The position numbers and the translations under genes were made by a program. The notes under the pieces are model-generated. The model worked only from the letters and a program-made list of their open reading frames with translations, did no database searches and had not been told where the DNA came from. Positions 6,280 through 23,952 of a DNA stretch of 23,952 nucleotides are shown here, in pieces. Position 1 is the stretch's first letter; each line of letters begins with the position of its first letter. The stretch covers positions 1 through 23,952 of IMG/VR virus record IMGVR_UViG_3300010158_000317, one strand, 5' to 3'. This DNA comes from a virus.

Positions 6280-6711
6280 ATGGCAACAACAAATGCGGCA
6301 CTTAGCCTAAAGTCTTTACTAGTACCGTCAAAAACGGTTGAAGTAGACTACCCAGGTTTAAACGGCTTCAAAATTAACGTAGTATTCCTATCTCGCGAAA
6401 CACTAGTTGGTATTCGCAAGAAAGCTACAAAAACAACTTTTAAAAATCGTCAACCTGTAGAGGAACTAGACGATAAGTTGTTCTTACAATTATACGTTAA
6501 TGCGTGTATTAAAGGATGGTCAGGCTTAAAGCTTTCTTATCTAGAACAGCTAGCTCCAGTAGATTTATCAGGACAAGATTCTGATACTGAATTACCATAC
6601 GACCAAGACAATGCACTATTCTTAATGCAATCGTCAGGAAACTTTGATGCTTTTATTTCAGAGACGGTAACTGAGTTATCAAATTTCACGAAGACCAGTA
6701 CAGAGAGTTAA
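6280..6711 (+). CDS. Tail assembly chaperone, short form (gpG-like)
   Basis: A 143-residue acidic protein between tail tube and tape measure genes, the invariant place for lambda gpG-type chaperones. It starts with a low-complexity stretch (ALSLKSLLVPSKTVEVDYPG), then a helical core (REILVG-type segment RETLVGIRKKATKTTF, and LFLQLYVNACIKGWSGLKL), and an acidic tail with NALFLMQSSGNFDAFISETV, typical of the family. It coats the tape measure protein during tail assembly and is absent from the virion. The start is set by AAAAGGA at 6263-6269. Near its 3' end is a slippery heptamer that gives a longer fusion. Family call is by position, pattern and the frameshift architecture. Confidence 0.8.
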   Translation: MATTNAALSLKSLLVPSKTVEVDYPGLNGFKINVVFLSRETLVGIRKKATKTTFKNRQPVEELDDKLFLQLYVNACIKGWSGLKLSYLEQLAPVDLSGQDSDTELPYDQDNALFLMQSSGNFDAFISETVTELSNFTKTSTES

Positions 6712-7061
6712 ATCGCCAATTAGAAAGTTATTTTAATAATAACACTGTAGGAATGACCCGTGACGCATATTTTGAAATGTGCGAAACTCTGGGAACAGAA
6801 CCCATTGATGAAGAAATTCCAGTAGAGTTTGAAGACTTTTTACTGGATGTTCAAGAAGCCCTTGGAATATACCAAAAGCTTCGAGATGAATGGGACTACA
6901 TGGGCGGAAACTATATAGGTAAAAACTATACAGGATTGCTAGATATATTGGAATTACTAGATGTACCGGTCGAAGATAGAAGAACTCAGTATGAGTTAAT
7001 AGGTATAATTGATAGGCATAGGTCACAAGCCATTGTTAATGCAAAACCTAAAACAAAATGA
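6280..7061 (+). CDS. Tail assembly chaperone, -1 frameshift fusion (gpGT-like)
   Basis: The downstream frame is open from 6675 to 7061 in the -1 frame relative to the short form. Slippage at AAATTTC (6681-6687) joins 6280-6687 to 6687-7061, giving about 260 residues: 136 from the G frame and 124 from the T frame. The join reads ELSNF-HEDQYRELNRQLE. The T part continues as MTRDAYFEMCETLG, IPVEFEDFLLDVQEALGIY and a C-terminal helix, like known T extensions. In lambda the gpGT form contacts tail tube protein and brings it to the tape measure complex. The ATG at 6753 has no properly spaced ribosome site, so a free-standing T protein is unlikely. Confidence 0.8.
6681..6687 (+). promoter_or_regulatory. 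Programmed -1 ribosomal frameshift site AAATTTC
   Basis: The heptamer fits X XXY YYZ exactly (A AAT TTC in the G frame, AAA TTT after the shift). In the -1 frame a TGA at 6672-6674 lies just upstream and the G-frame stop is at 6709-6711, so any productive shift must fall in 6675-6711; this is the only canonical slippery heptamer there. I see no strong downstream hairpin. Confidence 0.8.
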
Positions 7062-7063
7062 AG

Positions 7064-7096
7064 AACCCCGATAGTTAGCGCTATCGGGGTTTTTTT
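7064..7096 (+). terminator. Strong Rho-independent terminator after the chaperone genes
   Basis: AACCCCGATAG (7064-7074) pairs with CTATCGGGGTT (7081-7091) over a 6-base loop and is followed by T to 7096. The 11-bp GC-rich stem starts three bases after the stop codon. It closes the head/tube transcript and separates it from the tape measure promoter. Confidence 0.92.
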
Positions 7097-7118
7097 ATGG
7101 ACAAAAAAAATTTAACTA

Positions 7119-7147
7119 TTGACAATAAAGCCCATAAGTGTTATAAT
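7119..7147 (+). promoter_or_regulatory. Consensus sigma70 promoter upstream of the tape measure gene
   Basis: TTGACA (7119-7124), a 17-bp spacer and TATAAT (7142-7147) match the bacterial consensus at all twelve positions and at the optimal spacing. It lies just after the chaperone terminator and 53 bases before the tape measure ATG, leaving a leader with AGGAG at 7191-7195. Confidence 0.9.
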
Positions 7148-7200
7148 GGGGGTTACTAATAATAGCGTTTGAAAATTTTGCACGCTAAGCAGGAGAACAT

Positions 7201-10200
7201 ATGGCAGATAGTATTAATATTGCAGTTAATGTAAGTGATAACGGCACAACTGCACAAGCCACGGCTGAAGCTAGAAAATTAAAACAAGCACTACAAGATG
7301 CAGCCTCTGTGGCTGGACAAATACGTGTGCCCCTTGCTACCGGTGCGGCTAGGCAAGGTGTAGCAGCACGTGCAGCTGCTGCAAGTCCTACAGGAACTGC
7401 AAGTGACACTAATTTATCTCGTGGTGTTGCTGGTGCAACAGGTGCAAGCGGGCGAGACTTTGCTGCACAAGCACAGGGCTTAGGCGGACTTGTACACGTG
7501 TATGCTACTTTTGCAGCTAATTTATATGCCGTATCAGCAGCTTATGGTGCATTAAGTAAAGCAGCAGATACTGCTAACATTATTCAAGGACTAGAGCAAT
7601 TAGGTGCTGCAAGTGGTCGTTCACTAGGCGCGCTTGCTAAACAAATGGCACGTGCCTCAGATGGTGCAATTTCCTTACGTCAAGCAATGACGTCTACGGC
7701 ACTAGCAACTAGTGGTGGTATGACTAGTGATGCTATTTTACGCATGACTGAAGTTGCCAAAAAAGCTTCACTTGCGCTTGGTCGTGATATGGGCGACTCA
7801 TTAGATCGTTTAACAAAAGGTATTGTAAAAGTTCAACCAGAGTTATTAGATGAACTTGGTATTATGGCCAGAGTTATTCCTTCTCAACAAAAATATGCTC
7901 GTGAATTAGGTAAAAGTGTTGAAGCACTTAGCGATTTTGAAAAGCGTCAAGCATTTGCTAATGCAGTACTTACCGAAGGTGAAGCTAAATTTAATAATAT
8001 TAATATTCAAGCTAATGCATATACTAAACTAAGTGCTAGTTTAAGTAATCTTGCTACTGAAGGTTTAAATGTAATTAATATGGTACTTTTACCTGTTGCA
8101 AAACTTTTATCTGAAAGCCCCGTGGGTTTAACATTAGCTGTTGGAACAGTAGCTGGTTTATTATTAAAACAAGCTATTCCTGCGCTTGGACAATATAAAA
8201 AAGGTCTTGAAGATATTAAAAGAATAAATCTTGAAAAAGCAGCAAATAAAAGTGATGTTTTAACTGATACTGGTCAATATGATGCAGCACAAGCAGACCG
8301 ATCAAAACAAGCATTCTTAGACAGAAGTAAATATGCAACAAAAAGTGCAGCTGAACAAGCTCAATTAATGCTTGAAGGTGAAAAAATACATGCTGCTGTT
8401 TTAGCGCGTAATGAGGCTCGTTCAAATAGCTTTTTTGGGCATGAAACACTTAACCAAAAAATTATTAATAAAGCGTATGCAGAAGCTGCTGCTTCCAATA
8501 TTAAATCAGATGTTGCACAAACACAGTCAAGATATGGATTAGTTGCAGCTTGGAAACGTTTAAATGAAGAAATTAATGTATCTAAAACTACAGGTCAATT
8601 ATTAAAATTAGGTGATGGTGTTGAAGCACTAGCTCCTAAAACCGGTATGTTACAAAATGGCTTTATGCGTTTAACTGGTGGTTTAATGATTTTAGGTTCT
8701 GCAATAAGTACCATAATTGAAGCTTTTTCAGGTTGGTTAATTATTATAACTGCTGTTCTTGCTGGTATTAGTTTTTTTATAGATTATAATAAAACAGCTG
8801 GAAAAGAAGCAGAAAAATTAGCAGGTTCATTAGACCTGTTAAATGATGCTAGTAAAACAGTAGATAAAACAATAGATGCAATTAATGCAAAACCATTTCT
8901 TCAACAATTAGGTCGCGAAAGTCTATCGGCAAAAGCCAACGCCCTTGGCGGGGTTAGTGACGCCTTAGTAAAAGTAAGCAAAGATGCTGATGCTACACAA
9001 GCAAAAATGGGTTTTTGGGATAAACTAGGAGACGCAAGAATATGGAATGGAATAAAAAATGCATTTTCATTCAACGGAAAAAATACTAACTTAGTAGATC
9101 AAAGCGCTTTAGCAAATAACTTATCTACTGCTATATCACAAAGTATTGTAGATACTGCAAAACTTATTGAAGGCGGTCCTGCAGAAACTGAATTTAAAGC
9201 ATCTATTGCTAGAATATTGGGGGTAACTTATAGCGATATTACTGAGCTTCAAGATCGACTAGGTTCTGTTGGCGACAAACTTATTAATAATAAACCAGCC
9301 ATTGTAGGTGTTATTGAAGATACTAGCAAAAGTGTAAGAACCGCATCTACAGCTGGTGAAAGTTTAAAAACAGCTTGGGATGCCGCAGCAAAATCATGGG
9401 ATTCAATTGTATCTAGTCTTTCAGTAAAAGATCCACTAGGAAAGCTTGGCGAAGAATCAATGGATGTTGGCATGAAAATGCAAAAAGCTTTTGGTGATAG
9501 TGGTGAAAAATTAGCTGAATTAACCTCATTAACTAGAGACTATCAAAAATTGCGAATGGTTAGCCCAGAAACGCAACGTGGTCTTTTAGAATGGGGTTAT
9601 ACAATTGAAAAAGCTGGAAAAGAAGTCGAAACTTTAAAAACAAAACTAGAAACTCAAAAGAAAGCAGCTAAAGAAGCTGCTGATGCACTAGGTAACTTCA
9701 AACCAAGTCAAGCTGTTGGCGTATCTAGAAATGATGGATCAAGATATAATCCTTATATACAAAATAAAGTTGGTGGTAGTATTTTTCCAACAAATACAGC
9801 TGGAGATAATCAAGGATTAACAACAGCAAAATCACTAGCAGAAAGCACAGCACAACAAGTAAAAAATACTGAAAAACAAATTCAGCTTTTAAAAGACAGC
9901 ATGCAAAATGATGATTTATATTTAAAAGCACAAACCGAAGTATTTGTTAATGGTGCAAAGCAGTTTGAAAATTCTATTGGGCTAGGCTTTCAAAAATCCG
10001 GTATTGAAGTACAATTAAAAGCATTATCTGGTAATACTACCGTTGAAGGTATAAAACAAAGCGCTAGACTACAAGAAGCCTCAATTGGCATACAAATAAA
10101 AGGAATCGAAGCAAATAAACAATTAATAATTGCTACTAATAATTTAGCTCGTATTACTGAAGAAGTTGCTATTCAAGAAAAAGCTAAAGAAATTAGTGCG

Positions 10201-13200
10201 CCTGGATTTACTGGTAATAAAGCTGCAGAACAAGCAAAATTAGATTTACGTAGTCTTCAGCTTAAATTATTAAATGAATCAGATAAAATGACTACCGAGC
10301 AATTAAGAGTGCAAGTAAGTGGTAGTAAAACTCAATTACTTGGTAAACCCGCAACGGCTTTAGCACAAGGTGATCCTGTTGCAAAAGGGGTATATGCTAG
10401 AGCTCTTACAGAAAGAAATGCAACTGAAGCCGGAAATTTAGAAATAGCTATTTTAGGTAATACTAAATTAGGTAATCAACTTCAAACACAAAAAGATTTA
10501 GCCATAGCTACTGCAGAAGCACAACGTGTAGGACTAGAAGCTACTCTTGCAGAAGCTAATGCTAGATTATCAATATTAAGTAGTCTAGAAAAATATTCGC
10601 CTATTGTAACCGACATTACACAACAAAATAGAGAAAACGAAGAAAGTATTGTTCGTCAAGCTCAACAACAGTTAACTATGTTAGGTCTGACAGGTAAATT
10701 ACGTGCAGAAGAAGCTGCTTTAGCTAAAATGAATGCAAATAAGGCAGTTTATAAACCTAAAACAATAGCTGCACAATCTGCAGCAGTAGATCAAGCCAAT
10801 GCTGCTATAACTGCTCAAACTAGAAAAGATACAGCAGAAAATTCAGTAGCAGCTAGAAAAACCGCAGATCAAAAACTTGCAGATGCTAAAAAGAATTGGG
10901 ATTACGAACAAAGTATAGAAAAACAGAAAAATGATTGGGCTAATGAAGATAAGCAAAATAGTATTAATTTAGCTAGTATTAAATTGGGCACTTTAACTGG
11001 TATGAAAGCTCTTCAAGAGTCTTTGTTAGTAGATCAACAACGTCAAATTGATTTTGATAAAGAAGATGCTGATTATGCTAATAAACTAGCTAATGAAAAA
11101 GCGGCTAATGCTAATAAAGAGTTTGATCTTAAACAAAAAATGTCGCAGTTTGGTACAGACACTAAAGACTACCAAGCTTTAGATGCGCAATTAACCGCAG
11201 AAACTGCACACTATAAAAAGCTAATACCAACTTTAGAAGCCTTACATAATGCCAGAGACAAACAAATTAGTAGTATGGCAGCTTATGCTAAAGCAATTGC
11301 ATTAATTAATGAAAAAGAAGAAAAAGCAGCACTAATTAGACAATCCGCAGAAACACAAACTAATATCGCTCAAATTAATTTATCAACCATGTCTAACACC
11401 AAAGCCTTTTTAGATGATGAAATTATTGCACGTCAAAGAATAGTAGATCTAGAAAAAGAACAAAATTCTTACACTAGTGCGCTTGCTGCTACAAATAAAA
11501 AATATGAAGAACAGCTCGCTGGCGTTAATATAGCCCTAGAATCTAAACCAGCTGACGCAGAGCTTTTAGCTAGAAAAAAGGCTATTGGAACTGCATTAAA
11601 AACAGAAATAGATAACCTATTTGATGTAAAAGTTGCAACCGAAGCTAATATAAATGCTACAAGCAGATATAATAAAGCAATGGCAGAGTTAACACAAACT
11701 CAAACTTTAGCACAAGGACAACGTGCTGTACGTGCTGGATCTTTAGCTAATCAAGAAACTCTTGGTACTATTTCTGCTGGAACAGCTGCTATTGACCGTA
11801 GTGGTATGGCCAAACAAGCAGCAGATGAACAACACGCAAGAGATACACTAGGTGTACAAGAAAAAATTAATGAATTAGATAAAAAAGGTTATGAGGGTAG
11901 AACAGCCCAAGAAGACTTAGATTTAATATCTTATCAAAATAAATTAGCTTTTTATGACAAACAACTAGGTTATCAAAAACAAATAATTGATAATGATAGA
12001 AATACAGCAATACAAGTAGCTATAAATAATCTTCAGTTAGAAGAACAAGCTAGACTTACTGCAACTGCATCAAGTTATACAGAAAATATGACTATTGCAT
12101 TTGGAGATTTAGGTGCTGCAATTGGTTCTGCTACAGAAGCACTTGTTAAAATGGCTAATGATGAAATAAGCTATATCAAGGAAAAGGAAAAATTACAAAA
12201 GCAAATTTCTAGTTCTGTAAATGAGGATGAAAGAGTACTTATTGAGAGAAAACTTGGAGATTTAGAGAAAAAGAACACCACTGACCAAATTAGCAATATT
12301 GGAAAAATAGCTGGAGCTAGTAAAAAGTTTTTTGACCAAAAAACAATGGGTTATAAAGTAATGGAAGGCATTGAAAAAGCTGCTGCTTTAGTAAGTGCTG
12401 GAATACAAGCTAAGCAACTAGCAGAAGATGCAAGTAATGCATTAACAAAAATAGGTATTGATATACCTGCTATTTATACTGAGTTTATGAAGTATATGGG
12501 GCCGTGGGGACCCGCAGCTGCAACTGCTGCACTTGCTGCTGTAGGTGTTGCTGCTTCAGGATCTTCTAGTACTGGCTCTATGGTTGACATGACTGGCAAA
12601 ACTTCGGAAGAACGTCAGAAAAAGCAAGGTACTGGGGGCGTATTTGGAGATGACGCAGCTAAAACAACTACTATTGTTAACTCACTAGACATACTGGCTA
12701 AAAATTCCATTGAAGGTTTAAACTACGATAATGAATTGTTAAAAGCTATGAGACGTGTAGCTGATTCTGTAAGTGGTGCTGCTAAATCTATTTATGCTGC
12801 ACCAGGTATCAGAAGTGGTCAAGGTTTTGGTACTGCCGAAAAAGACTCAAAAACTCTTGGTAGTTTTGGGTCTGTGCCTGTAGTAGGTAAAATTCTTGAT
12901 AGTATTTTTGGCGGCGGGACTTCTACTAGTACTAAAATTACTTCTGCGGGTATTGAACTTAAGGGTACGTTTAAAGAAGTAATGAATGATGTTTCTGGTA
13001 GTATTAAACAGTTTAAAGATGTATTAACCACATCACATACTGATGGAGGTTGGTTTGGACAAGATTCAGATTCTAGTTCACTTGCACACCAAGTACAAGA
13101 TTTAGGTAGTAACACAAGTCGTGCAATATCTGATATATTTGGACAAGCTAACAAAATGTTTGCAATACTAGGCCAAAAAACTAATGTTAGTGCTGCTAGC

Positions 13201-14769
13201 ATTAATAAAGTTTTAGAAACCTTTGATGTTAGTATGCCTATTGATTTAATGAATAAAACGGGTCAAGAACTTGTTGATGAGTTAAATGCAGTTATAGGTG
13301 AAAGAATCAGCAATGCGGCTCAAAAAATCTTTACTGGATTTGAAAAATATCGTCAATTTGGCGAAGACTACTTAGGTACTGTGCTACGTGTAGTAGATGG
13401 CAATGACAAAGTAAATCAATCGCTATTATCAATTGGACATGCATTTTCTATTGTAGGTAAATTTGATATATCGGAAGATATGATTAAAATTGCTGGTGGA
13501 CTAGAGGCTTTTCAAACTGAAACAGCGTTTTTCCGAGATAACTTTTTAACTGCTGCTGAAAAGCTGGCTCCAGTACAAAAATCAGTAAATGATCAATTAA
13601 CAAAACTTGGTATTAATATTGGTATTACTCGTGATGATTTTAAGCAACTAGTAATATCTCAAAATCTTAGTACAGTTGGCGGTCGTGAAATGTATCAAAG
13701 TTTAATGGAGTTAGCTCCAGGGTTTGATATTGTTACTAAAGCTATGGCTGAACTTGCAAATAAAGAATTAGACCTAGAAGCAAAAATTTATGATTTAATC
13801 GGTCAAAAAGCAATAGCATTGTCTATTGCCAGAAATAAAGAACTAGCAGCAATGGATGCTTCGCTAAGACCCCGTCAAATTTATATTAATGCACTAACTG
13901 ATGAAATTGCAATTCGTGATAGACTTAAGTCAGCTTATGATTCTTCTAATAAATCTGTTAATGCTGCAATTGTTTCGTTAAATAACTACAAAACTGCACT
14001 TCTTGCAGGAGCTGCTTCAACGCTTACTCCAGCACAGAAATATGCGGATGCTGCTGCAATATTTAAAGCAACTGCGCAAGCTGCTGCTGTTAAAATTACT
14101 ACAGCAAGTACTGCAACAGATATTGCTGCTAGAGATGATGCAGTTGCTAAATTAAATAGTGTATCCGATAGTTTCTTAGCTAATTCTAAAGAAATGAATG
14201 CAGGTACTGCACAGTATCAACAGGATTTAACCGACGTTACAACAGCGGTAACTGATGCTACAACTGCAATGGGTACACAACTTTCTGACGCTAAACTGCA
14301 ACTAGGTTTCCTAGATACCATTGCAGCAGCAACACAAACAACTGCAGATATTCTAACAGAGTATTTAACAGCAGTGGGTGTTACCAATATTGCACAAACT
14401 GGTGCAGCTGCCTCAGGTTCTGTAGCATCTACATTTCAGATACCTGGACATGCAGATGGTGGATTGGCACAAGGTATTTCTATGGTTGGTGAAAATGGAC
14501 CCGAACTTGTGGACTTTAAAACACCGGGTCGAGTTTATTCTAATAAGGCCAGTAATGATTTATTTAATACTAAGGAATTAGTAGAAGAAATTAAAGCATT
14601 AAGAAAAGAAGTAGCTGACTTACGTGCAGATCAGAAAGAACAAACAGGACATTTAATAACAACAACATATGACGCTAATATGAAAAATGCTGAAGCAATT
14701 ACAACAGGAAATCAAGATGCTCTAAATAATCAAAATTGGAGTACGCGATCTAAAGTTAAAGTAGCTTAA
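7201..14769 (+). CDS. Tail tape measure protein
   Basis: A 2522-residue protein, by far the largest complete gene here, located after the chaperones. Long helical Ala/Gln/Lys/Glu-rich stretches dominate (coiled coils about 805-830, 1235-1400, 1655-1700). Three hydrophobic segments are visible: about 308-330, 491-527 and 1766-1790; such segments are thought to help form the DNA channel through the host membrane. Near the C-terminus, 2418-2450 holds the usual HADGGLAQG...VGENGPELVDF...PGRVYSN motif of tape measure proteins. I see no lysozyme or peptidase motif. At about 0.15 nm per residue (the lambda rule) the tail would be about 380 nm. The start is fixed by AGGAG at 7191-7195. The gene has its own promoter and terminator. 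Codon choice varies within it: CGT-rich near both ends, ATA/AGA-rich in the middle. Confidence 0.92.
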   Translation: MADSINIAVNVSDNGTTAQATAEARKLKQALQDAASVAGQIRVPLATGAARQGVAARAAAASPTGTASDTNLSRGVAGATGASGRDFAAQAQGLGGLVHVYATFAANLYAVSAAYGALSKAADTANIIQGLEQLGAASGRSLGALAKQMARASDGAISLRQAMTSTALATSGGMTSDAILRMTEVAKKASLALGRDMGDSLDRLTKGIVKVQPELLDELGIMARVIPSQQKYARELGKSVEALSDFEKRQAFANAVLTEGEAKFNNINIQANAYTKLSASLSNLATEGLNVINMVLLPVAKLLSESPVGLTLAVGTVAGLLLKQAIPALGQYKKGLEDIKRINLEKAANKSDVLTDTGQYDAAQADRSKQAFLDRSKYATKSAAEQAQLMLEGEKIHAAVLARNEARSNSFFGHETLNQKIINKAYAEAAASNIKSDVAQTQSRYGLVAAWKRLNEEINVSKTTGQLLKLGDGVEALAPKTGMLQNGFMRLTGGLMILGSAISTIIEAFSGWLIIITAVLAGISFFIDYNKTAGKEAEKLAGSLDLLNDASKTVDKTIDAINAKPFLQQLGRESLSAKANALGGVSDALVKVSKDADATQAKMGFWDKLGDARIWNGIKNAFSFNGKNTNLVDQSALANNLSTAISQSIVDTAKLIEGGPAETEFKASIARILGVTYSDITELQDRLGSVGDKLINNKPAIVGVIEDTSKSVRTASTAGESLKTAWDAAAKSWDSIVSSLSVKDPLGKLGEESMDVGMKMQKAFGDSGEKLAELTSLTRDYQKLRMVSPETQRGLLEWGYTIEKAGKEVETLKTKLETQKKAAKEAADALGNFKPSQAVGVSRNDGSRYNPYIQNKVGGSIFPTNTAGDNQGLTTAKSLAESTAQQVKNTEKQIQLLKDSMQNDDLYLKAQTEVFVNGAKQFENSIGLGFQKSGIEVQLKALSGNTTVEGIKQSARLQEASIGIQIKGIEANKQLIIATNNLARITEEVAIQEKAKEISAPGFTGNKAAEQAKLDLRSLQLKLLNESDKMTTEQLRVQVSGSKTQLLGKPATALAQGDPVAKGVYARALTERNATEAGNLEIAILGNTKLGNQLQTQKDLAIATAEAQRVGLEATLAEANARLSILSSLEKYSPIVTDITQQNRENEESIVRQAQQQLTMLGLTGKLRAEEAALAKMNANKAVYKPKTIAAQSAAVDQANAAITAQTRKDTAENSVAARKTADQKLADAKKNWDYEQSIEKQKNDWANEDKQNSINLASIKLGTLTGMKALQESLLVDQQRQIDFDKEDADYANKLANEKAANANKEFDLKQKMSQFGTDTKDYQALDAQLTAETAHYKKLIPTLEALHNARDKQISSMAAYAKAIALINEKEEKAALIRQSAETQTNIAQINLSTMSNTKAFLDDEIIARQRIVDLEKEQNSYTSALAATNKKYEEQLAGVNIALESKPADAELLARKKAIGTALKTEIDNLFDVKVATEANINATSRYNKAMAELTQTQTLAQGQRAVRAGSLANQETLGTISAGTAAIDRSGMAKQAADEQHARDTLGVQEKINELDKKGYEGRTAQEDLDLISYQNKLAFYDKQLGYQKQIIDNDRNTAIQVAINNLQLEEQARLTATASSYTENMTIAFGDLGAAIGSATEALVKMANDEISYIKEKEKLQKQISSSVNEDERVLIERKLGDLEKKNTTDQISNIGKIAGASKKFFDQKTMGYKVMEGIEKAAALVSAGIQAKQLAEDASNALTKIGIDIPAIYTEFMKYMGPWGPAAATAALAAVGVAASGSSSTGSMVDMTGKTSEERQKKQGTGGVFGDDAAKTTTIVNSLDILAKNSIEGLNYDNELLKAMRRVADSVSGAAKSIYAAPGIRSGQGFGTAEKDSKTLGSFGSVPVVGKILDSIFGGGTSTSTKITSAGIELKGTFKEVMNDVSGSIKQFKDVLTTSHTDGGWFGQDSDSSSLAHQVQDLGSNTSRAISDIFGQANKMFAILGQKTNVSAASINKVLETFDVSMPIDLMNKTGQELVDELNAVIGERISNAAQKIFTGFEKYRQFGEDYLGTVLRVVDGNDKVNQSLLSIGHAFSIVGKFDISEDMIKIAGGLEAFQTETAFFRDNFLTAAEKLAPVQKSVNDQLTKLGINIGITRDDFKQLVISQNLSTVGGREMYQSLMELAPGFDIVTKAMAELANKELDLEAKIYDLIGQKAIALSIARNKELAAMDASLRPRQIYINALTDEIAIRDRLKSAYDSSNKSVNAAIVSLNNYKTALLAGAASTLTPAQKYADAAAIFKATAQAAAVKITTASTATDIAARDDAVAKLNSVSDSFLANSKEMNAGTAQYQQDLTDVTTAVTDATTAMGTQLSDAKLQLGFLDTIAAATQTTADILTEYLTAVGVTNIAQTGAAASGSVASTFQIPGHADGGLAQGISMVGENGPELVDFKTPGRVYSNKASNDLFNTKELVEEIKALRKEVADLRADQKEQTGHLITTTYDANMKNAEAITTGNQDALNNQNWSTRSKVKVA

Positions 14770-14774
14770 AAAGG

Positions 14775-14803
14775 TGCCCTGGATAATACCAGGGCATTTT
14801 TTT
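14775..14803 (+). terminator. Rho-independent terminator after the tape measure gene
   Basis: TGCCCTGG (14775-14782) pairs with CCAGGGCA (14789-14796) over a 6-base loop and is followed by seven Ts (14797-14803). It begins five bases after the stop codon. Confidence 0.92.
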
Positions 14804-14823
14804 GTGCCAGATAAAAAATATAC

Positions 14824-14852
14824 TTGACTAAAGTTATCTAAACGAGTATAAT
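14824..14852 (+). promoter_or_regulatory. Near-consensus sigma70 promoter upstream of the tail tip genes
   Basis: TTGACT (14824-14829), a 17-bp spacer and TATAAT (14847-14852) differ from consensus at one base. It follows the tape measure terminator and precedes the hub gene with AGGAGA at 14868-14873, giving a very short leader. Architecture copies that of the tape measure promoter. Confidence 0.88.
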
Positions 14853-14877
14853 AGGGTAAATTGAATTAGGAGAATAT

Positions 14878-16767
14878 ATGAGCAATGTAACGCAAGCATG
14901 GCTTGAAGATCCTGCCAGTATTCGCGGCATACTGGTAGAAGTAACAGTAAAAGATTTACTTGGTAAATACGGAACTGCAGGAACCGATGTAACACTATAT
15001 CTAAGTAATATAGGCTATACTACTGATAGTGCTGATGTTAGTTATTTACCATATTTAACAGGTGCGCTACAAACAACAGAAAGCCTATCCATTGATGGTA
15101 GCTTGTCCATGAGTTTTGGCAATATTGAAATTGCTAACCCTAATGGGGAACTAGATAGTTGGTTAGATAGTACTCAATTTATTTGGGTTAATCGAAATAT
15201 TCAAGTATATTTAGGTGATCCTAGTTGGTTTACCAGTACTTTAACAGACGTACATACAGTATTTGAATTAGTATTTAATGGTGTAATAGCAGATGTTGAT
15301 TCTAGTGCGCGTGAAACATTAAGTATAAAAGTTCGTGATAAATTACAGCGGTTAAATACTCCGCTAACTGGGAATATTCTTGGCACTTATGGTATTTGGG
15401 GTTCTGGTCAAGCAAATCAAGATAGTATTCGACCATTAGTATTTGGCGAAGTACATAATATGTCGCCACTACTAACAGACCCGTCATTATTGGAATATAT
15501 GTTTACTGATACCAGCGTTGGTACACTAGTATCAGCTACATCAGCAACAGGCAATTTAATAACTTGTGCAAGTACTGTTGGATTTGTTTTAAATAAACCA
15601 ATTATATTTACTAAAGCAGGGGCCGCTACAGGTACAAATATATTAGGCGGTATACTAGCAAAAACAACATATTATATTGATAGTATAGCAACTAATAACA
15701 AAGATTTTACTATTAAAGATATTAACAATGTAGTTATAACACTTACTACTGCTACAGGCTCTATAACTAGCCCTGTACTAGCAGAGGTACGAGTAACTAC
15801 AGCTGAGTCTGTTATTGAAATTCGTTATAATGGTTTAGCCGCGTATACTAATCCAGCCATATATGGTAATAATAATATTTCAAGACCTAATGGTGCTACT
15901 ATTGATTTAACTAATGGAAAATTTGCTTGTACATCGCAACCACTGGGAACTGTTACTGTTTCAGTACAAGGTTTACAAAGAACTGTAGATCTTACTACAG
16001 GTGCATTAATAGAAGGTACTTATACAAATAATATTGCAAAAATAATTGCAGTAATTGTTACGCAATATGGTGATGTAAATAAAAGATTATCGGCTTCAGA
16101 TTTAGATTTAGTTAATTTAAATACTTTTGCTACTAATAACACAGCCCCTGTTGGTATTGTAGTAACAGATAGAACTAATGTTTTAAATGTTTGTCAAAGT
16201 ATATTAGACAGTGCTGCTGCACAGTTATTTTTTAATCGCAAAGGTTTATTGCAAATATTACAACTTGGAACACCTACTAGCGATCCTGTAATTACAATCA
16301 CAGATACAGACATACTATTTCATAGCCTACAAATATCTGCAAGAACAGAAGTTGTTGCAGCAACAAAAATAGGTTATTGCAAAAATTATACCGTTCAAAC
16401 AGCATTGGCTGGAAATGTTCCGCCAATGGCCATTACTATGTTTGGTGATGAGTGGTATACTAGCAGTATATTAGATTCTACCATACAAGCAAATTATAAG
16501 CTTGAAAGCACTCCTGTACAACAAGATACATGTTTGCTAGCAAAAACAGATGCTGATGCATTAGCATTATCTATAAATAATTATTTTAAAGTACCAAGAA
16601 CAGTATATAGTTTTGTAGCAAAAGCCAGTTTATTTTCTTTAAAATTAGGGCAAGCAGTTACATTGACACATAATAGATTTGGATTAGTTGATGGTAAATC
16701 TGGCCAAGTAATATCACTTAGTCCAAATTGGGTCGCGGGTACAATAAATGTAGAGGTAATTGTATAA
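14878..16767 (+). CDS. Tail hub / baseplate protein
   Basis: A 629-residue protein following the tape measure gene, where siphoviruses encode distal tail and hub proteins. The first 190 residues are beta-rich and read like the early part of many phage tail hub proteins (SIDGSLSMSFGNIEIANPNG, then FELVFNGVIADVDSS, then LSIKVRDKLQRLN). IRPLVFGEVHNMSPLL follows. Residues about 212-300 form a distinct inserted module with NILGGILAKTTYYIDSIAT, a pattern seen in many phage structural proteins. The C-terminus (FKVPRTVYSFVAK, LGQAVTLTHNRFGL) matches hub-type ends. It probably forms the ring at the tail tip that joins the shaft to the fibres. No separate Dit gene is visible, so Dit and hub roles may be combined; that is inference. 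Its stop overlaps the next start (TAATG). Confidence 0.6.
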   Translation: MSNVTQAWLEDPASIRGILVEVTVKDLLGKYGTAGTDVTLYLSNIGYTTDSADVSYLPYLTGALQTTESLSIDGSLSMSFGNIEIANPNGELDSWLDSTQFIWVNRNIQVYLGDPSWFTSTLTDVHTVFELVFNGVIADVDSSARETLSIKVRDKLQRLNTPLTGNILGTYGIWGSGQANQDSIRPLVFGEVHNMSPLLTDPSLLEYMFTDTSVGTLVSATSATGNLITCASTVGFVLNKPIIFTKAGAATGTNILGGILAKTTYYIDSIATNNKDFTIKDINNVVITLTTATGSITSPVLAEVRVTTAESVIEIRYNGLAAYTNPAIYGNNNISRPNGATIDLTNGKFACTSQPLGTVTVSVQGLQRTVDLTTGALIEGTYTNNIAKIIAVIVTQYGDVNKRLSASDLDLVNLNTFATNNTAPVGIVVTDRTNVLNVCQSILDSAAAQLFFNRKGLLQILQLGTPTSDPVITITDTDILFHSLQISARTEVVAATKIGYCKNYTVQTALAGNVPPMAITMFGDEWYTSSILDSTIQANYKLESTPVQQDTCLLAKTDADALALSINNYFKVPRTVYSFVAKASLFSLKLGQAVTLTHNRFGLVDGKSGQVISLSPNWVAGTINVEVIV

Positions 16768-19001
16768 TGGCAGCAATTATTAATGAAAGAGATAAAGCGT
16801 TACAAAGTGTAGCGTATAGGACTATGGATACTTCAGTAACTATAGCCTCAAATAATGGTGCATTATTTAAAACTCCTAAAAATGGAGCATTAACTATACC
16901 TACAGCAGGTATAACGCTTACAGCAACTGCAAGTGTTATATTTACAGCCGCTGCTGTGTATACCTGGCATTATGCACTAAGCGCTACTCCCACAACATGG
17001 GTATTGCTAGGCACTGGTAACACACAAACTATTTCAAACACAGCATTTTTAACTGCTGTTGGCAATTCCACAGCAATAAACTACCGTTGCACAGTAACAG
17101 AAAACTTACTAACAACTGCTTATGGCTACTATAACGTACAGTATAGCCTAGAAGCTTCAGAACCTATTGTAACAAACTTATCTCGAGTTGTTGCAACAGT
17201 TGGATCTAATGCAGCAGGTACTCCTGTTAGTTTTGCAAATACAGATACAACAATTACTGTAACTCGTGGTACAAGTAACTTAACCTATAGTTCCACAGGC
17301 GGAGCAAACACATTTCAGGTTGCTGTTGATACTAGTGGAACCAATGCCTCAAATCGCACACTAGATACGCAAACTGCAGTAAATGGTGGGACCACTTATA
17401 CATTAGCCGGTATTACAGGACTAACAGCAGATTCTGCAAAAGTTGTGTTTGTGATTACGCCTTATGACGCAGCTGGTGCAGTTATGGCATCTATAACTCG
17501 AGAAATTACTTATACAAAGGTTACAAACGGTGTTGTTGGCGCAAATGCGGTATTTTATTACTTAGATATTCCAACTCCGGTTATAAGTAAATCTACAAGT
17601 AGCCCCTTAATTACAGGTACACATAGTGGTATTACGGTAACTGGTAAAAAAGTAAATGGTGGTACAACTACTAATTACGGTTATATAACAATTACTGGCA
17701 ATGGTGGCACAGAAGTAGGTACTGCTGATTCTTTAACAAAAAGCTTTACACCTAATAACACAGATACGTACACATCATACACAGTAAAACTATATAATGA
17801 AGCCAGCGTAGCATCACCTACTCAAATATTATTAGACACACAGGTAATTCCAGTTGTGTTTATTGGTGGTAGTACTATTACTGCTACGCTAACTAACCCA
17901 AATACGGTTATTCCCACAGACTCATCAGGTAATGCAGGCGTTTATACAAATACTACCACAGATGTTTATGTTTACGAAGGTGCAACTGCACTAACATATG
18001 ATGCGGTTGGTACTAGTAATGGTACTTGGAAAGTTACAACAAGTGCTACCAATATTACAGCAGGAGCTGTTACTGACTTAGGCATATACGGTCGCACAGC
18101 CATTGCTGCAAATATCCTAGCTGATACAGCTTTTATTAATTTTAATATTACTGGAACTACCCTAGGCGGTCAAACATTTACTGCAACAGCCACCCAAACT
18201 TTTGCAAAAAGCAAAGCAGGCATTACTGGTAGTGCAGGGAAAAATGCACTTGTAGCTATTGTTAATTATTATGCTTGGGGTAACTCAGGAGTTCCTACTT
18301 ATACTGGTAATATAACATATACTTGGTCAACTAGTAGTTATAGTTGGCCAACTAAACCAGCTGCTTGGACAACAACTATTGGAGCAGCTCCAGGTACAGG
18401 ATATACTTTATATCAATTAAGTTTAACTATAAAAGGCCTAGAAGGCGATACTAGTACAACAGTAGATATGGCAACTGCAATTGTTGGTACAATTGGTTAT
18501 CGTAATGATGGTACAATTGGATTGCAAGGCAATTCTGCACGTACTGTTTACGTAGTTACTACTAGTGCCATAGTACCAGGAAGCCCTACTCCAGCTGTAC
18601 CTGGTGCCGGCGGTGCCGGCGGCGATGCTATACCAACCAGCACGGTCACTAATTTAGATGGTACACTAGCTACTTGGAGTTTTCAGGCAAGTAGTATCTT
18701 AACTGGTGGTCAGTACATGTATCAATGCGATGGTATACTTAACACCGCCACTAATGCAATTACTTGGAATAGCCCCTATCTTTCAAATTTAAAAGTAGGT
18801 AGTTTATCTGCTATTAGTGCTAATTTAGGTAGTATTAGTGCTGGTGCTTTAAATATTAATAATAAATTTATTGTAGAATCAACAGGTGCTACAACTATTC
18901 AAAGTGGTACAACTGGTTCTCGTATGCAAATGACTGAGAACTTTATTAAAATATACGATGGTAGTATACTCAGAGTACAATTAGGTAATTTAAGTATGTA
19001 A
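16767..19001 (+). CDS. Tail tip / host-specificity protein with Ig-like domains and J-like C-terminus
   Basis: A 744-residue protein starting at the ATG that overlaps the previous stop (TAATG), with GAGGT at 16753-16757. An upstream TTG at 16728 would extend into the hub gene and has no support. The N-terminus (INERDKALQSVAYRTM) is followed by several Thr/Gly-rich Ig-like beta domains, including YTWHYALSATPTTW (about 70-85) and VYVYEGATALTYD (about 405). Residues about 600-625 are a Pro/Gly hinge. The C-terminus (VGSLSAISANLGSISAGAL, then RMQMTENFIKIYDG and LRVQLG) resembles the end of lambda J-type central tip proteins. It probably forms the central fibre that touches the receptor. The lambda-J role appears divided between this protein and the hub protein; that is inference. 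Confidence 0.65.
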   Translation: MAAIINERDKALQSVAYRTMDTSVTIASNNGALFKTPKNGALTIPTAGITLTATASVIFTAAAVYTWHYALSATPTTWVLLGTGNTQTISNTAFLTAVGNSTAINYRCTVTENLLTTAYGYYNVQYSLEASEPIVTNLSRVVATVGSNAAGTPVSFANTDTTITVTRGTSNLTYSSTGGANTFQVAVDTSGTNASNRTLDTQTAVNGGTTYTLAGITGLTADSAKVVFVITPYDAAGAVMASITREITYTKVTNGVVGANAVFYYLDIPTPVISKSTSSPLITGTHSGITVTGKKVNGGTTTNYGYITITGNGGTEVGTADSLTKSFTPNNTDTYTSYTVKLYNEASVASPTQILLDTQVIPVVFIGGSTITATLTNPNTVIPTDSSGNAGVYTNTTTDVYVYEGATALTYDAVGTSNGTWKVTTSATNITAGAVTDLGIYGRTAIAANILADTAFINFNITGTTLGGQTFTATATQTFAKSKAGITGSAGKNALVAIVNYYAWGNSGVPTYTGNITYTWSTSSYSWPTKPAAWTTTIGAAPGTGYTLYQLSLTIKGLEGDTSTTVDMATAIVGTIGYRNDGTIGLQGNSARTVYVVTTSAIVPGSPTPAVPGAGGAGGDAIPTSTVTNLDGTLATWSFQASSILTGGQYMYQCDGILNTATNAITWNSPYLSNLKVGSLSAISANLGSISAGALNINNKFIVESTGATTIQSGTTGSRMQMTENFIKIYDGSILRVQLGNLSM

Positions 19002-19009
19002 GGATTAAA

Positions 19010-19297
19010 ATGGCTTTTGGTTTAAAAATGTATAAGTCTAATGGACTTGTTGCCTATGATTCAAATTCTGTTACATGGAACCAAGTTGATCAAGTTTATG
19101 TTGCTGGTGGTGGTAGTGGAAGCTGGACATATCCGCTACTTGTAAACAAAGAAATTTTAGTTGTACAAATGCTAATAGATGCACCGCCTACTAACCGAAA
19201 AGCTATAGCACATACTATAACTTCAAGCAATATAACAGGCACCATTTCAATTTCCGGCGGTTCTGAAAACGCCTATTTTTGGGTATTAATGCGATGA
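19010..19297 (+). CDS. Small tail tip-associated protein
   Basis: A 95-residue protein, MAFGLKMYKSNG at the start, SVTWNQVDQVYVAGG in the middle and AYFWVLMR at the end. Small proteins of this pattern often lie next to the J-like gene in siphoviruses and are thought to be tail tip components, but I cannot give a proven function. It has a good ribosome site (AAGGA at 19000-19004) eight bases after the tip protein stop and overlaps the next gene by ATGA. Its first 25 residues share a loose pattern with the start of the giant fibre protein downstream, suggesting a common attachment or cap domain. Confidence 0.65.
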   Translation: MAFGLKMYKSNGLVAYDSNSVTWNQVDQVYVAGGGSGSWTYPLLVNKEILVVQMLIDAPPTNRKAIAHTITSSNITGTISISGGSENAYFWVLMR

Positions 19298-22200
19298 GCT
19301 ATGGATTTTCAGCAACTAATAATTATAATCAAGTTTTAATATCTAGTGATACTCGTAACTTGCATTTTATAGGTAAAGCATATTTATATAATACTTTATT
19401 AACAAGCGACTATTATGGTGGAGTTCGCCAATGGACTTTTAGAATAGGTACTGCTAAAAATATTGTTCCCCTACCCTTTTTTACAATGACTGGTGCGGAG
19501 TATTACGGAGTATCAGCAGTTAGACAAATTAGTGTAGCGGATACTACTATTTTTACTACGGGCCCTATTCCTATAGAAGGTCAACTAGCAAAAACATATA
19601 ATTGGAACAATGCTCCTACTACTATTACAGAAGGCGTAGATAATATTTATAGTATAAATACTACTAACGTATTAAATGGTACTATGCTATACTGGGATAT
19701 ATCGCCAAGTACAGGTAATGATTTTCAGTATACAGACGGTAGTTTTATTATTGGTAGTACTGGAGCTGGTTCTTTTCAAATAACTCCAACTAAGTTTTTT
19801 GACCCATATCCAGAAACCGCAGAAAACTACACTATTAATATTAGAACGTATGCACCATTAACTGGAGCTATAGTATTATCACAAACTATTGTTGTTAATA
19901 ATACCAGTAGTACTGATATTATAGGCTTTGGCTGGACTACTAACGCAAATTGGGGCCCTAATTCAATTACTGAAGGTAGTAACAATACTGGAGGTGTTCC
20001 ACCAGGAGCATTTGTAATTACAGCAATACAAGGGAATAACTCAGTTATAGCAACCTCTTCTACTATAACTCTAGCTAATGAATATACAGAGTCTTATACT
20101 TTTAGCAGTCTAGCATTAACAATGAATGAAGGTGCAGCAAGTACCGTTGGTATTACTACTACTAATGTTAAAGATGGCACAATAGTTTATTGGGAAATTC
20201 CTAATGCTGCAAATGAGTTTTTAGTTACAAGCGGTAGTTTTACTGTAACTAATAATGCAGGATCATTCAGCATTACTACTACTAGTTTTTATGATGCATT
20301 TGCTGAAACAAATGAAACATATAATATTGTATTAAAAAGATTTGATGGCACCGCATATAATACTGTAAAAACATCCTCGGCAATAACTGTAGTTAATGTT
20401 GCTAATGCAGCAGCTACAACAGCTCTTGGATGGAATACAGATTCTACCTTTGGGCCTACTAATTTAACAGAAGGCACTATTTACAGTGGTACTACACCTC
20501 CTAATGTATACGTTGTAACAGATGTTAATCCAAATAATACTGTATATGTTACTTCAGAACCTATTACTCTAGCTACTGAATTTACTGAAACATATACATT
20601 TAGTAGTTTAACGTACAGTATGACTGAAGGTGTTGCCAGCACAGTAAGCATTACTAGTACTAATGTACCTAATGGGACAATAGTATATTGGGAATTGCAA
20701 AATGCTGGAAATGAGTTTTTAGTTACAAGCGGCAGTTTTACTGTAACTAATAATACTGGTTCATTTATTGTAACGCCTACTAAATTTTATGATGCCTTTA
20801 CTGAATTTACTGAAACATACAATATTATTTTAAAAAGATTTAATGGTACTACTTACAATGCCGTAGCAACTTCTACTACAAGAATATCATTAACTAATTC
20901 ACCTAATAATACAGCTACTACAGCCTTAGGATGGAATACTAATGCTTTGTGGGGTACTGATACACTGGTTGAAGGTACTGTGGGTAGTGGTGCTCCTGGT
21001 AGTACAACTATACCGACCAATGTGTTTGTTGTTACAGACATTGATCCTGCCAACACTGTTATAGTTACTTCTCCATTAATTACTTTACCAACTGAAAAAA
21101 TTGAAACATATACTTTTAATAGTATAAACTATACTATGACTGAGGGTATTTCAAATACCGTAACAGTTAGTACAACTAATGTACCTAATGGCACATTAGT
21201 ATATTGGGAATTACAAAATGCTGAAAATGAATTCCTAAGTATTAGTGGTAGTTTTACTATTAATACTAATACAGGATCATTTGTTGTAACTCCTACTAGT
21301 TTTTATGATCCGTACCAAGAAGTAAATGAAACCTACAATATTGTATTAAAAAGATTTAATGGTACTACGTATAATACAGTAAAAACATCTTCTGCAATTA
21401 TTGTTAATGCAGTTAATAATATAGCCACCACTGCATTAGGTTGGAATACTAGTAGTTCATGGGGTACTGGCGCGTTAACAGAAGGTACACTAGGTAGTGG
21501 TGTTCCAGATACTACAACAGGTATTTTACCTACAAATGTATTTGTTGTTACAGATGCTAATCCTGGCAATCCTGTATACGCTACATCTTTTCCAATAACT
21601 ATACGTTCTCAGGCTAGCGAAACATATTCTTTTAGTAGTTTACCAGCAGCTATGATTGAAGGCAGTAGTTCTGCGGTTACTGTTACGACTAACGGTGTTC
21701 CAGATGGCACAATTATAAACTGGACCCTAAACTCAACAAACTCAAATAATTTTGTGGCAGATAGTGGTACTTTTACAGTTTACAGTAACACAGCCACATT
21801 TAGTATAACGCCAACAAATGTTTATGATGCTTATGTAGAATCAGTATCAGATTCATTTACTATTACATTGTTTAAACAGTTTGGTACTCCAGATAATCTT
21901 ACAACTGAAATTTTTATAACTTCCAATAGCATAGTTATAACTCCTAGCACTACCACACAAACTACAGGATTTGGTTGGAACACAAATGCTTTATGGGGCA
22001 CAGACCCTATTAGCGAAGGTGTAGCAGGGGCTGGTATACCAGATGATATAACAGGTACTATACCTGCTAACGTATTTGTAGTAACAGAAACTGATCCACA
22101 AAATATAGTTATTGTTACTTCAGGGAGTATACGCATTGATGCTGATAATTCAGGTTCAGCAGTTGTTTTTGATTATGGTTACGGAAGTTCTGGTTGGGGC

Positions 22201-23952
22201 GGCACAGCGGGCAATGAGCTTGCTGTTAATCGCAATTCAGGCAATGCTGATGTTTTAGTATATACTAATTATCCAGTAGGAACAACTCTTTATTGGTATC
22301 TATCAACAGGTAATTCAACTTTAGACGATAATAGCGTTAATTTTAGACAAACTCAGGGTTTTGCTACAATAGTTGCAGGTTCAAGCGCGTACAATATTGC
22401 TGTTATTACTCTTGAGTATATCTATAACAACGATTCTACAGCTAATCGTTTAGGTACAGGTCTTGCAGCTTATTGGAATACTACAAGCAATACAATTTAT
22501 TCTGTTTCTGATACAAAAAAGAGATTTAAACTACGTTGTAGATTAGGTGATGATACTGGTCCACTACTTGCTGCCGATGGAACACTTAGTGGAACTACAA
22601 CAAGCACTGACGGAACATTACCAATATATTTAACAAGTATTACTTATGCTGCTATAACTCTTTTACGATGGGCTGGCATAGGAGCTGCTTGGGCTAATGA
22701 CCAAGTACTTACAGAAGGTACCAGATATACTTTTCGTTTATCAAACTTTGTAAGTAGTACAGCGTATAGTTGGTCAATTCAACATATAACTACAGATACA
22801 AACGATTTTTTAAGTACAGGCGGTACTACTGGTATTGTTAATCAACCTGGTACAAGTAACTACTCTTTTTCTATAACACCAGTAGTAGACGGAAGACGAG
22901 AAACATTCAAAACCTTTAGAATTACAGTAACTCAATCAGGCAGAACAATAACTTCACCAATTTTAACAATTCGACCTAGCAATGATATAACTGCTCCAGC
23001 CATAGAAGCACCACTAACTATTACAGAAAACCAAAGTTTTACTTGTACTGCAAAAACTGTGGGTTTAGCTGATGGTACCTACTACTGGAGAATAAACAAA
23101 CCCGCTACACCAGGAGCTACTGTAGCAGACTATAACATAGGCCCGCCTGTAACAGGAGACTTTAATTATTTTTATGGTCCAGTTACCATGATTAATAATA
23201 CTGGTACATTTACTGTTCCAGCATTACCAGTTGACAGTATTACAGAAGCTCAAGAATATTTTACTATTAGTTTAGTAACTAAAACTACTGTAACTAGAAC
23301 TTGGAATATTGTAGATGTAAGCACTAATGGTATTAATGATTTTGATGCTATAACAGGAACTACTACACCTGGTGGATTTAATTGGTCTTATTTTACTATT
23401 ACAGCAAAAGCAGATAGTTTAACTGAAGGCACAGAAAAGTTTACGATTAGTATTAGAGATAGTGCTAATAATTTACCTGAATTATGTAGTTCAGGTGAAA
23501 TATCTGTGTTAGACGTTAGCCAACTAGTGCCGCCTGTGGCTCCGTATTTTACGGGGCCAAGCAGGGTATATGAAGGTATACAAAATACTTTTACTGTTAA
23601 AACCTCTGGTTTAACTGATGGTACATATTACTGGCGAATAGATGATATAACTACGTCCACTATAGTTAATCAAAACAATGCAAATAGTACTGGAGATTTT
23701 GGCGTTCAATGGGGTAATATAACAATAACCAATAATACTGGTACGGTTGATATAACTGCAATTTCTGATATAAGTACAGAATTTGATGAAAAATTCACAA
23801 TTAGTATTGTAGGCAAAGCAGGAGTTAATTATAGATACTGGAGTATTAATCCAGTTCTGCCAGCTACTGCTGCTGATTTTACCGCAGGTAGTTTATCTGG
23901 AGCCTGTACACCTGGTGGTTATAATTGGTGGTATTTTACAGTTAATGCTGCA
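19294..23952 (+). CDS. Giant tail fibre-like protein with tandem Calx-beta-like repeats (3' partial)
   Basis: The frame from the ATG at 19294 is open to the window edge, at least 1553 codons; I read every codon and found no stop. Residues 1-99 (MSYGFSATNN, SSDTRNLHFIGKAY, IVPLPFFTMTGAEYYGV) look like a phage tail attachment domain. Five tandem units of 166-172 residues follow (19591 to about 22137), each with TEG...NVPNGT.VYWE...GSFTV...TPT.FYDAF.E..ETYNIVLKRF and then LGWNT..WG...TEG...NVFVVTD. A divergent 300-residue section comes next, then 182-residue units with DGTYYWRI, DF and TEG.EKFTISI. These features resemble Calx-beta domains, common in long phage fibres and bacterial adhesins. It is Thr/Ser/Asn-rich, with no signal peptide. 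It is probably the side or tip fibre; binding specificity and end lie outside the window. Confidence 0.8.
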   Translation, partial: MSYGFSATNNYNQVLISSDTRNLHFIGKAYLYNTLLTSDYYGGVRQWTFRIGTAKNIVPLPFFTMTGAEYYGVSAVRQISVADTTIFTTGPIPIEGQLAKTYNWNNAPTTITEGVDNIYSINTTNVLNGTMLYWDISPSTGNDFQYTDGSFIIGSTGAGSFQITPTKFFDPYPETAENYTINIRTYAPLTGAIVLSQTIVVNNTSSTDIIGFGWTTNANWGPNSITEGSNNTGGVPPGAFVITAIQGNNSVIATSSTITLANEYTESYTFSSLALTMNEGAASTVGITTTNVKDGTIVYWEIPNAANEFLVTSGSFTVTNNAGSFSITTTSFYDAFAETNETYNIVLKRFDGTAYNTVKTSSAITVVNVANAAATTALGWNTDSTFGPTNLTEGTIYSGTTPPNVYVVTDVNPNNTVYVTSEPITLATEFTETYTFSSLTYSMTEGVASTVSITSTNVPNGTIVYWELQNAGNEFLVTSGSFTVTNNTGSFIVTPTKFYDAFTEFTETYNIILKRFNGTTYNAVATSTTRISLTNSPNNTATTALGWNTNALWGTDTLVEGTVGSGAPGSTTIPTNVFVVTDIDPANTVIVTSPLITLPTEKIETYTFNSINYTMTEGISNTVTVSTTNVPNGTLVYWELQNAENEFLSISGSFTINTNTGSFVVTPTSFYDPYQEVNETYNIVLKRFNGTTYNTVKTSSAIIVNAVNNIATTALGWNTSSSWGTGALTEGTLGSGVPDTTTGILPTNVFVVTDANPGNPVYATSFPITIRSQASETYSFSSLPAAMIEGSSSAVTVTTNGVPDGTIINWTLNSTNSNNFVADSGTFTVYSNTATFSITPTNVYDAYVESVSDSFTITLFKQFGTPDNLTTEIFITSNSIVITPSTTTQTTGFGWNTNALWGTDPISEGVAGAGIPDDITGTIPANVFVVTETDPQNIVIVTSGSIRIDADNSGSAVVFDYGYGSSGWGGTAGNELAVNRNSGNADVLVYTNYPVGTTLYWYLSTGNSTLDDNSVNFRQTQGFATIVAGSSAYNIAVITLEYIYNNDSTANRLGTGLAAYWNTTSNTIYSVSDTKKRFKLRCRLGDDTGPLLAADGTLSGTTTSTDGTLPIYLTSITYAAITLLRWAGIGAAWANDQVLTEGTRYTFRLSNFVSSTAYSWSIQHITTDTNDFLSTGGTTGIVNQPGTSNYSFSITPVVDGRRETFKTFRITVTQSGRTITSPILTIRPSNDITAPAIEAPLTITENQSFTCTAKTVGLADGTYYWRINKPATPGATVADYNIGPPVTGDFNYFYGPVTMINNTGTFTVPALPVDSITEAQEYFTISLVTKTTVTRTWNIVDVSTNGINDFDAITGTTTPGGFNWSYFTITAKADSLTEGTEKFTISIRDSANNLPELCSSGEISVLDVSQLVPPVAPYFTGPSRVYEGIQNTFTVKTSGLTDGTYYWRIDDITTSTIVNQNNANSTGDFGVQWGNITITNNTGTVDITAISDISTEFDEKFTISIVGKAGVNYRYWSINPVLPATAADFTAGSLSGACTPGGYNWWYFTVNAA
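19591..22137 (+). repeat. Five tandem protein-coding repeats of 498-516 bp
   Basis: Unit starts at 19591, 20089, 20587, 21103 and 21619 give periods of 498, 498, 516 and 516 bases (166 or 172 codons). The first and last units are the most divergent. The middle three keep long near-identical DNA stretches, such as 20212-20256 against 20710-20754 (one mismatch in 45 bases). Each unit holds a larger Calx-beta-like half and a smaller half with a second TEG motif. Confidence 0.88.
23026..23952 (+). repeat. Second repeat family of 546 bp (182 residues), cut by the window end
   Basis: The segment TENQSFTCTAKTVGLADGTY (from 23026) recurs as YEGIQNTFTVKTSGLTDGTY with its Glu at 23572, 546 bases later. 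Both copies continue with YYWRI, a DF motif, a Gly/Thr strand, a [TI]...E..E.FTISI strand and a PGG[FY]NW..FT segment. Sequence is divergent at DNA level. More copies may follow beyond the window. Confidence 0.75.

Follow-up and report, generated by a model that had tools for sequence, protein, structure and literature searches.

Is the giant repeat protein encoded at the end of this viral DNA a very long receptor fibre, as was proposed as one possibility in an earlier note made from the sequence alone, or is it built into the phage tail in another way? The DNA analysed, called the window below, is an entire virus fragment from IMG/VR, 23,952 bases long, and the 3' end of the gene is absent from the record. 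On the plus strand, a stop-free frame runs from the ATG at 19294 to the window end (19294–23952) and encodes 1,553 visible residues of a putative array-bearing tail-tip protein, which continues past the contig. The ATG overlaps the stop of a 95-aa ORF ending at 19297.

All parts of the protein lie on the plus strand. Residues 1–80 (MSYGFSATNNYNQ...VSAVRQIS; 19294–19533) are homologous to the start of repeat-free proteins of 305–318 aa and represent the first half of the N-terminal domain of what is called the scaffold below. They are followed by a junction of residues 81–99 (19534–19590), where the array starts and replaces a two-residue hairpin turn. Five composite units come next, namely A1 (166 aa, from residue 100; 19591–20088), A2 (166 aa, from residue 266; 20089–20586), A3 (172 aa, from residue 432; 20587–21102), A4 (172 aa, from residue 604; 21103–21618) and A5 (about 170 aa, from residue 776; 21619–22128). 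The remainder consists of the divergent block D (residues 946–1134; 22129–22695), within which the array varies most, a single Calx-beta-like domain C (residues 1135–1234; 22696–22995), the 182-residue unit B1 (residues 1235–1416; 22996–23541), and the first 137 residues of unit B2, which is cut by the window end (23542–23952).

The autocorrelation of the protein sequence showed peaks at lags 166 and 172. By pairwise BLASTP, the A units were 34–64% identical with scores up to 207 bits, compared with a best score of 28.9 bits for shuffled units; their similarity is therefore not due to chance. The layout given in the earlier note, five units of 166–172 residues followed by a divergent block and 182-residue units, was thus borne out. 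At the DNA level A2–A4 were 71–75% identical, which indicates old duplications and not assembly stutter. Within the window, B1 and B2 were 43.6% identical over 140 aa. The score of domain C against B1 (26.2 bits) was under the best shuffled score and weak on its own, and the domain was assigned from its position, its motif and a by-eye comparison with the matching stretch of a full-length relative, L003. The motif TEG had been taken to mark both domains of each composite unit; it was found in six of the ten A half-units, and the looser motif xEG in all ten.

Two relatives, L002 and L003, were obtained when IMG/VR was scanned with the window protein, and scans of the same collection with the repeat units returned these two and no others. 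Both genes are complete and encode 1,753 and 1,417 aa, respectively, from the equivalent ATG. The window end corresponds to L002 residue 1204, beyond which 549 residues remain in L002. Judged from this alignment, the window protein probably lacks ∼550 C-terminal residues, and its full length would be about 2,100 aa if the remainder is as in L002. Both protein ends are common to L002 and L003, with a C-terminal domain that is well conserved between them, and the first 80 window residues were 85% and 84% identical to L002 and L003, respectively. The array insert comprises 1,437 residues in L002 and 1,107 in L003, and in the window it has at least 1,473; the A units number 5 in the window and 3 and 2 in the two relatives. 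The end of the protein, which the earlier note had sought past position 23952, was in this way located through the relatives, with ∼550 further residues in L002 and a conserved domain last; an early stop with no further domain was seen in neither of them. Among 50,697 phage records, no close array relative of the window protein was found at E 1e-5, and the L002 query gave nothing beyond a weak hit at E 0.03, on a virion structural protein from two Synechococcus phages.

The two kinds of repeat distinguished in the earlier note can indeed be recognized, but they are homologous. When the profile of ten A units was aligned with that of seven B units by hhalign, a probability of 96.6% was obtained (E 5.8e-10, 145 columns), and the alignment was in register across both unit halves, which indicates at the profile level that the A and B repeats are one superfamily. 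The suggestion that they are Calx-beta-like was supported by PF03160, which matched the L002 protein in its B units with 33.9 bits (cut-off 27) and the L003 protein with 26.6 bits, just under the cut-off. In the Pfam scan of the window protein, its own repeat copies gave no match, PF03160 included; the A family would count as Calx-beta-like by descent, without a direct Pfam match. Compared with the Calx-beta domain itself, the second repeat kind of L002 passes the curated cut-off and the first kind shares ancestry with it, whereas the window copies are without a Pfam match and the units are two-part composites. E14, D69 and E73 (A7 numbering) are among the acidic positions that are invariant across the ten A units.

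A structure model of residues 776–1416 (pLDDT 64.7, pTM 0.38) was all-beta. For the large domain of A5 the model showed a beta-sandwich, most pLDDT values being 64–93, and for block D the confidence was mostly low. A Foldseek search with this model returned Ig-like tandem proteins with E down to 5.6e-9, but with TM-scores of 0.1–0.2. The model supports the array being a chain of beta-sandwich domains, its overall shape and block D lying beyond the model's reliability. No receptor-binding signature and no known binding domain was found in the array, the matches being to generic Ig-like folds only.

The C-terminal part of L002 and L003 was also found in L009, where the whole protein is only about 308 aa. 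It starts like the window protein (MSYGFLATNQYNQVLVSSDTRNLHF) and then passes straight into the C-terminal part, with no repeats. A search with the N-terminal 103 residues gave seven more loci, in which the match ended at residues 29–90 (most at 77–90), and all seven encode the same repeat-free protein of 305–318 aa. After a wider scan, repeat-free frames were read in at least 21 phage contigs, where the first ∼80 residues, similar to those of the window protein, are joined directly to the C-terminal part of the relatives. Because the same N- and C-terminal ends are contiguous in these repeat-free homologues, the whole array can be regarded as an insertion at one point.

The position of this point was examined by AlphaFold2 modelling of the repeat-free L012 protein (305 aa) together with 22 relatives (23 sequences), which yielded a model with pLDDT of 81.8 and pTM of 0.80. 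The scaffold, of ∼305 aa, has two beta-domains. Strands 69–78 and 81–89 pair as a beta-hairpin with the turn at 79–80; this turn corresponds to the residue where the array starts in the window, and the scaffold of L002 and L003 resumes at the counterpart of W82. Since the insertion site is a hairpin turn in the model, the two ends of the array would lie side by side, and the array is predicted to loop out from this turn instead of forming a stalk that separates an attachment domain from a distal tip. Only the outgoing junction can be seen in the window, and the return junction is placed by analogy with L002 and L003.

In a PHROG scan the repeat-free relatives matched 4062, 3370, 6061 and 425 over residues 1 to ∼200, the 4062-type match having E values of 1.1e-10 to 1.4e-7 (best 7.6e-11), and three insert-bearing homologues, L038, L046 and L047, matched the 4062-type profile as well. 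The window protein (P0001) had no PHROG match at E 0.01. These PHROG families are mostly of unknown function, and their profiles, of 223–263 positions, are without the array. Sequence profile searches of the PDB with the A units, the B units and the scaffold gave nothing meaningful, and a fold search of the PDB with the scaffold gave weak generic matches and no convincing solved counterpart. A gasdermin pore fold was considered for the scaffold and rejected, the best VIA-align match (Z 6.0 at 11.8 Å rmsd) being taken as chance; the C-terminal domain weakly resembled the lambda gpJ fibre (8xcj, Z 4.8), a match that was not relied on. In one genome per bacterial or archaeal species, 26 pattern matches to the scaffold were found, 0 of which were confirmed, so that no host link could be drawn.

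The genes around the scaffold gene are recurrent. A small ORF of ∼95 aa lies directly before it in 27 of the 27 loci examined, and a tip protein with a similar C-terminal end precedes in 25, most of the tip proteins ending in LRV(K/Q/R)(I/L)G(N/K/D)L or near it. The cassette can be written as tip protein, ∼95 aa, scaffold and, in the usual case, ∼70 aa and ∼200–225 aa. In the window it is represented on the plus strand by the 757-aa tail-tip protein (16728–19001), ending ...LRVQLGNLSM, and the 95-aa gene (19010–19297), which gave a weak match to PHROG 557/2427. An FG...DS motif that the 95-aa protein and the scaffold have in common had hinted at homology, but this was not supported, as hhalign gave probabilities of 1.9% and 3.8%, with only 19 aligned columns in the better case. 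Before the tip gene lies a 629-aa tail gene (14878–16767, plus strand; PHROG 8917, function unknown), whose product may be hub-like, as judged from gene position. Just upstream of it (14824–14852) a sequence agreeing with a promoter consensus at 11 of 12 bases was noted; promoter-like sites in 14700–23952 were no commoner than in shuffles. In L002 the scaffold gene is followed by genes of 76 and 225 aa, and at least eight more ORFs lie 3' of it on the same strand, so that in this relative the gene does not stand at the end of the tail operon, where the earlier note had put it. In Acinetobacter phage phiAbaA1 a distant 263-aa homologue (YP_009304777) is placed likewise, after a giant tail protein.

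The upstream genes of the window form a T5-like siphophage head and tail set, including protease and capsid, adaptor, tail completion, terminator, major tail protein and chaperones. A 2,522-aa ORF in the tape-measure position (7201–14769) had no match in Pfam; if tail length follows tape-measure length as usual, the tail would be unusually long. At 2–1780 the head-maturation protease is apparently fused to the major capsid protein (Peptidase_S78 at residues 8–97, Phage_capsid at 347–567), two proteins that are annotated as two genes in the best phage relatives. In L009 (1736–9290) the cassette adjoins a lysozyme-like gene and genes that, by eye, are unlike the siphophage set of the window, which suggests that the scaffold cassette moves between unrelated phages.

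Inserts were also found at other loops of the same scaffold. L038, L046 and L047 carry inserts of 226–447 aa, of which 226, 261 and 246 residues, respectively, fall in the turn that links the long strands 221–242 and 245–267 of the second domain (numbering of the L012 model); in L046 and L047, loops around residues 90–115 hold further inserts, of 447 and 243 residues. Two matches were obtained with the large insert of L046, whose scaffold homologue has 1,022 aa (6345–9410): one to PHROG 2056, described as 'tail fiber protein; host specificity' (E 8.9e-6), and one, with 24.1 bits slightly short of the cut-off of 25, to the Gp38 adhesin PF05268 (E 3.6e-5). The glycine-rich composition of the insert may inflate these scores. 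The second-domain inserts of L038 (8001–9599), L046 and L047 (1284–3695), all at one hairpin turn, have (D)DG(Y/L)W and ISTN/VSTN-like motifs in common by eye, and may be homologous to one another. The scaffold model was also matched by BFVD A0A6J5REC2 (555 aa, E 2.1e-25), which carries the database name 'bulb-type lectin domain containing protein'. Scaffold homologues with broken frames were seen in L040 and L041 (both 8001–9013) and L043 (8001–8995), the matched range containing 7 and 2 stops; sequencing error, genuine decay or a frameshift may be the cause.

In the scaffold tree, where the window row covers 25% of the columns, the three array carriers formed one clade (100/100), which adjoined eight repeat-free rows within the starred set of 11. 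Such a tree fits a single gain of the array. The identities between the window and L002 were 85, 71, 66, 35, 45 and 62% for the scaffold start, A1, the last A unit, D, C and B1, and 63% for B2; those between L002 and L003, from the N terminus through the scaffold end, were 76, 74, 49, 29, 34, 47, 51, 67 and 55%. Block D of the window was 35% identical to that of L002 and 26% to that of L003. Conservation thus drops toward the middle of the array from both ends. This pattern is as expected for a loop with a variable apex, which would probably be block D; recombination or relaxed constraint would look identical.

From these results we consider it likely that the protein is a small tail-tip scaffold bearing a giant, looped-out Calx-beta/Ig-like array as an adhesion module. 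As read from the sequence, a conserved tail-cassette protein carries the giant insert, and according to the predicted structure of the relative, the insert would exit and re-enter at one hairpin turn. The chain would run out after residue 80, through A-type units, the variable middle and B-type units, and back; the returning chain would complete the first domain of the scaffold and then build the C-terminal domain. The protein may be placed at the tail tip because the scaffold gene travels with the tip-protein gene, its position in the virion being deduced from gene order, and the array would project as a looped or doubled-back arm. A role as adhesion module is suggested by the other inserts in the same scaffold and by evolved Dit proteins. 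The variable middle or the faces of the repeats might attach to some structure of the host surface, a glycan or a surface layer being the probable target, and so aid adsorption. Least certain is the last step, in which block D at the apex would make the host contact. Other relatives use different loops of the same scaffold for different modules.

A related explanation retains the proposed loop topology and takes the array as a spacer or decoration, which would raise the chance of contact by weak, unspecific sticking to cells, mucus or particles. The generic Ig-like matches with no known binding domain, and the A-unit copy number, which varies freely, would agree with such a role. It is less easily reconciled with the good conservation of the outer array parts and with the Gp38-like adhesin insert that at least one relative carries in the same scaffold, and we regard it as rather unlikely. 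An ordinary long tail fibre, with N-terminal attachment, a linear repeat stalk and a distal C-terminal receptor-binding tip, appears improbable. In the usual fibre plan an N-terminal attachment region is followed by a repeat stalk and a conserved C-terminal domain, and L002 and L003 do agree well in that last domain; but the two ends form one contiguous 305–318-aa protein in the at least 21 repeat-free contigs, strands 69–78 and 81–89 pair in the L012 model, and the tip domain of a stalk would hardly be fused straight to its base in so many relatives. A classical trimeric tail fibre has a separate distal C-terminal tip, whereas here the C-terminal part continues the N-terminal scaffold. The very long receptor fibre with a terminal binding domain that the earlier note envisaged was consequently not supported, the C terminus of the relatives being the other half of the scaffold, while the alternative named there, a virion-borne adhesin, is plausible. 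That an assembly artefact or chimera joined a repeat gene to a tail gene is scarcely credible: the window contig is a fragment ending inside a repeat, but the same junction occurs in three contigs from different metagenomes with 51–63% overall protein identity, and the frames are open over 1,417–1,753 codons in the two complete relatives.

If the looped-out adhesion module is the right interpretation, giant phage repeat proteins like that of the window could be read as a small conserved protein with a looped-out insert instead of as a stalk, and the scaffold family would gain a testable role as an adhesion scaffold. The resemblance of the C-terminal part of a giant protein to small proteins of other phages would be explained, and a search rule for unrecognised receptor-binding modules would follow, namely to look for inserts at the hairpin turns of the scaffold. 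More speculatively, and with somewhat less than an even chance in our estimation, the cassette might be a general tail-tip 'socket', whose scaffold offers at least two to three slots for adhesion devices ranging from Gp38-like modules to a closed loop of about twenty Ig domains; the grip on the host would then lie at the apex of a loop that is anchored at its two ends, in contrast to the free tip of a fibre.

None of the papers searched linked Calx-beta, phage and tail fiber. With the T-even long-tail-fibre adhesin Gp38, the L046 scaffold insert shares the PF05268 and PHROG 2056 matches; Gp38 is a separate fibre-tip protein, whereas the L046 insert lies inside a scaffold loop, and the window array is unrelated to Gp38. 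The BACON repeats of crAss-like phages are likewise tandem domains forming a variable array in a phage protein, but the domain family differs from the one found here (PMC6949934). A close parallel is offered by the evolved Dit proteins known from skunaviruses and from further siphophages that infect Gram-positive bacteria, in which insertions improve adsorption to EPS-bearing lactococci (PMC10688798). There, too, a compact tail-tip protein carries an internal adhesion module, and both flanks align with an insert-free form (PMC10688798); the same arrangement was found here, with the first flank only seen in the window itself. The scaffold was assigned to no Dit family in Pfam and PHROG scans, and the evolved Dit inserts are carbohydrate-binding modules of 168–319 aa, whereas the insert described here is a repeat array of 1,107–1,437 residues in the relatives and of no fewer than 1,473 in the window. 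The internal insertion of an adhesion module into a tail-tip protein is thus known in kind, and what is unusual in the present case is the size of the insert, its repeats and how varied the inserts on a single scaffold are.
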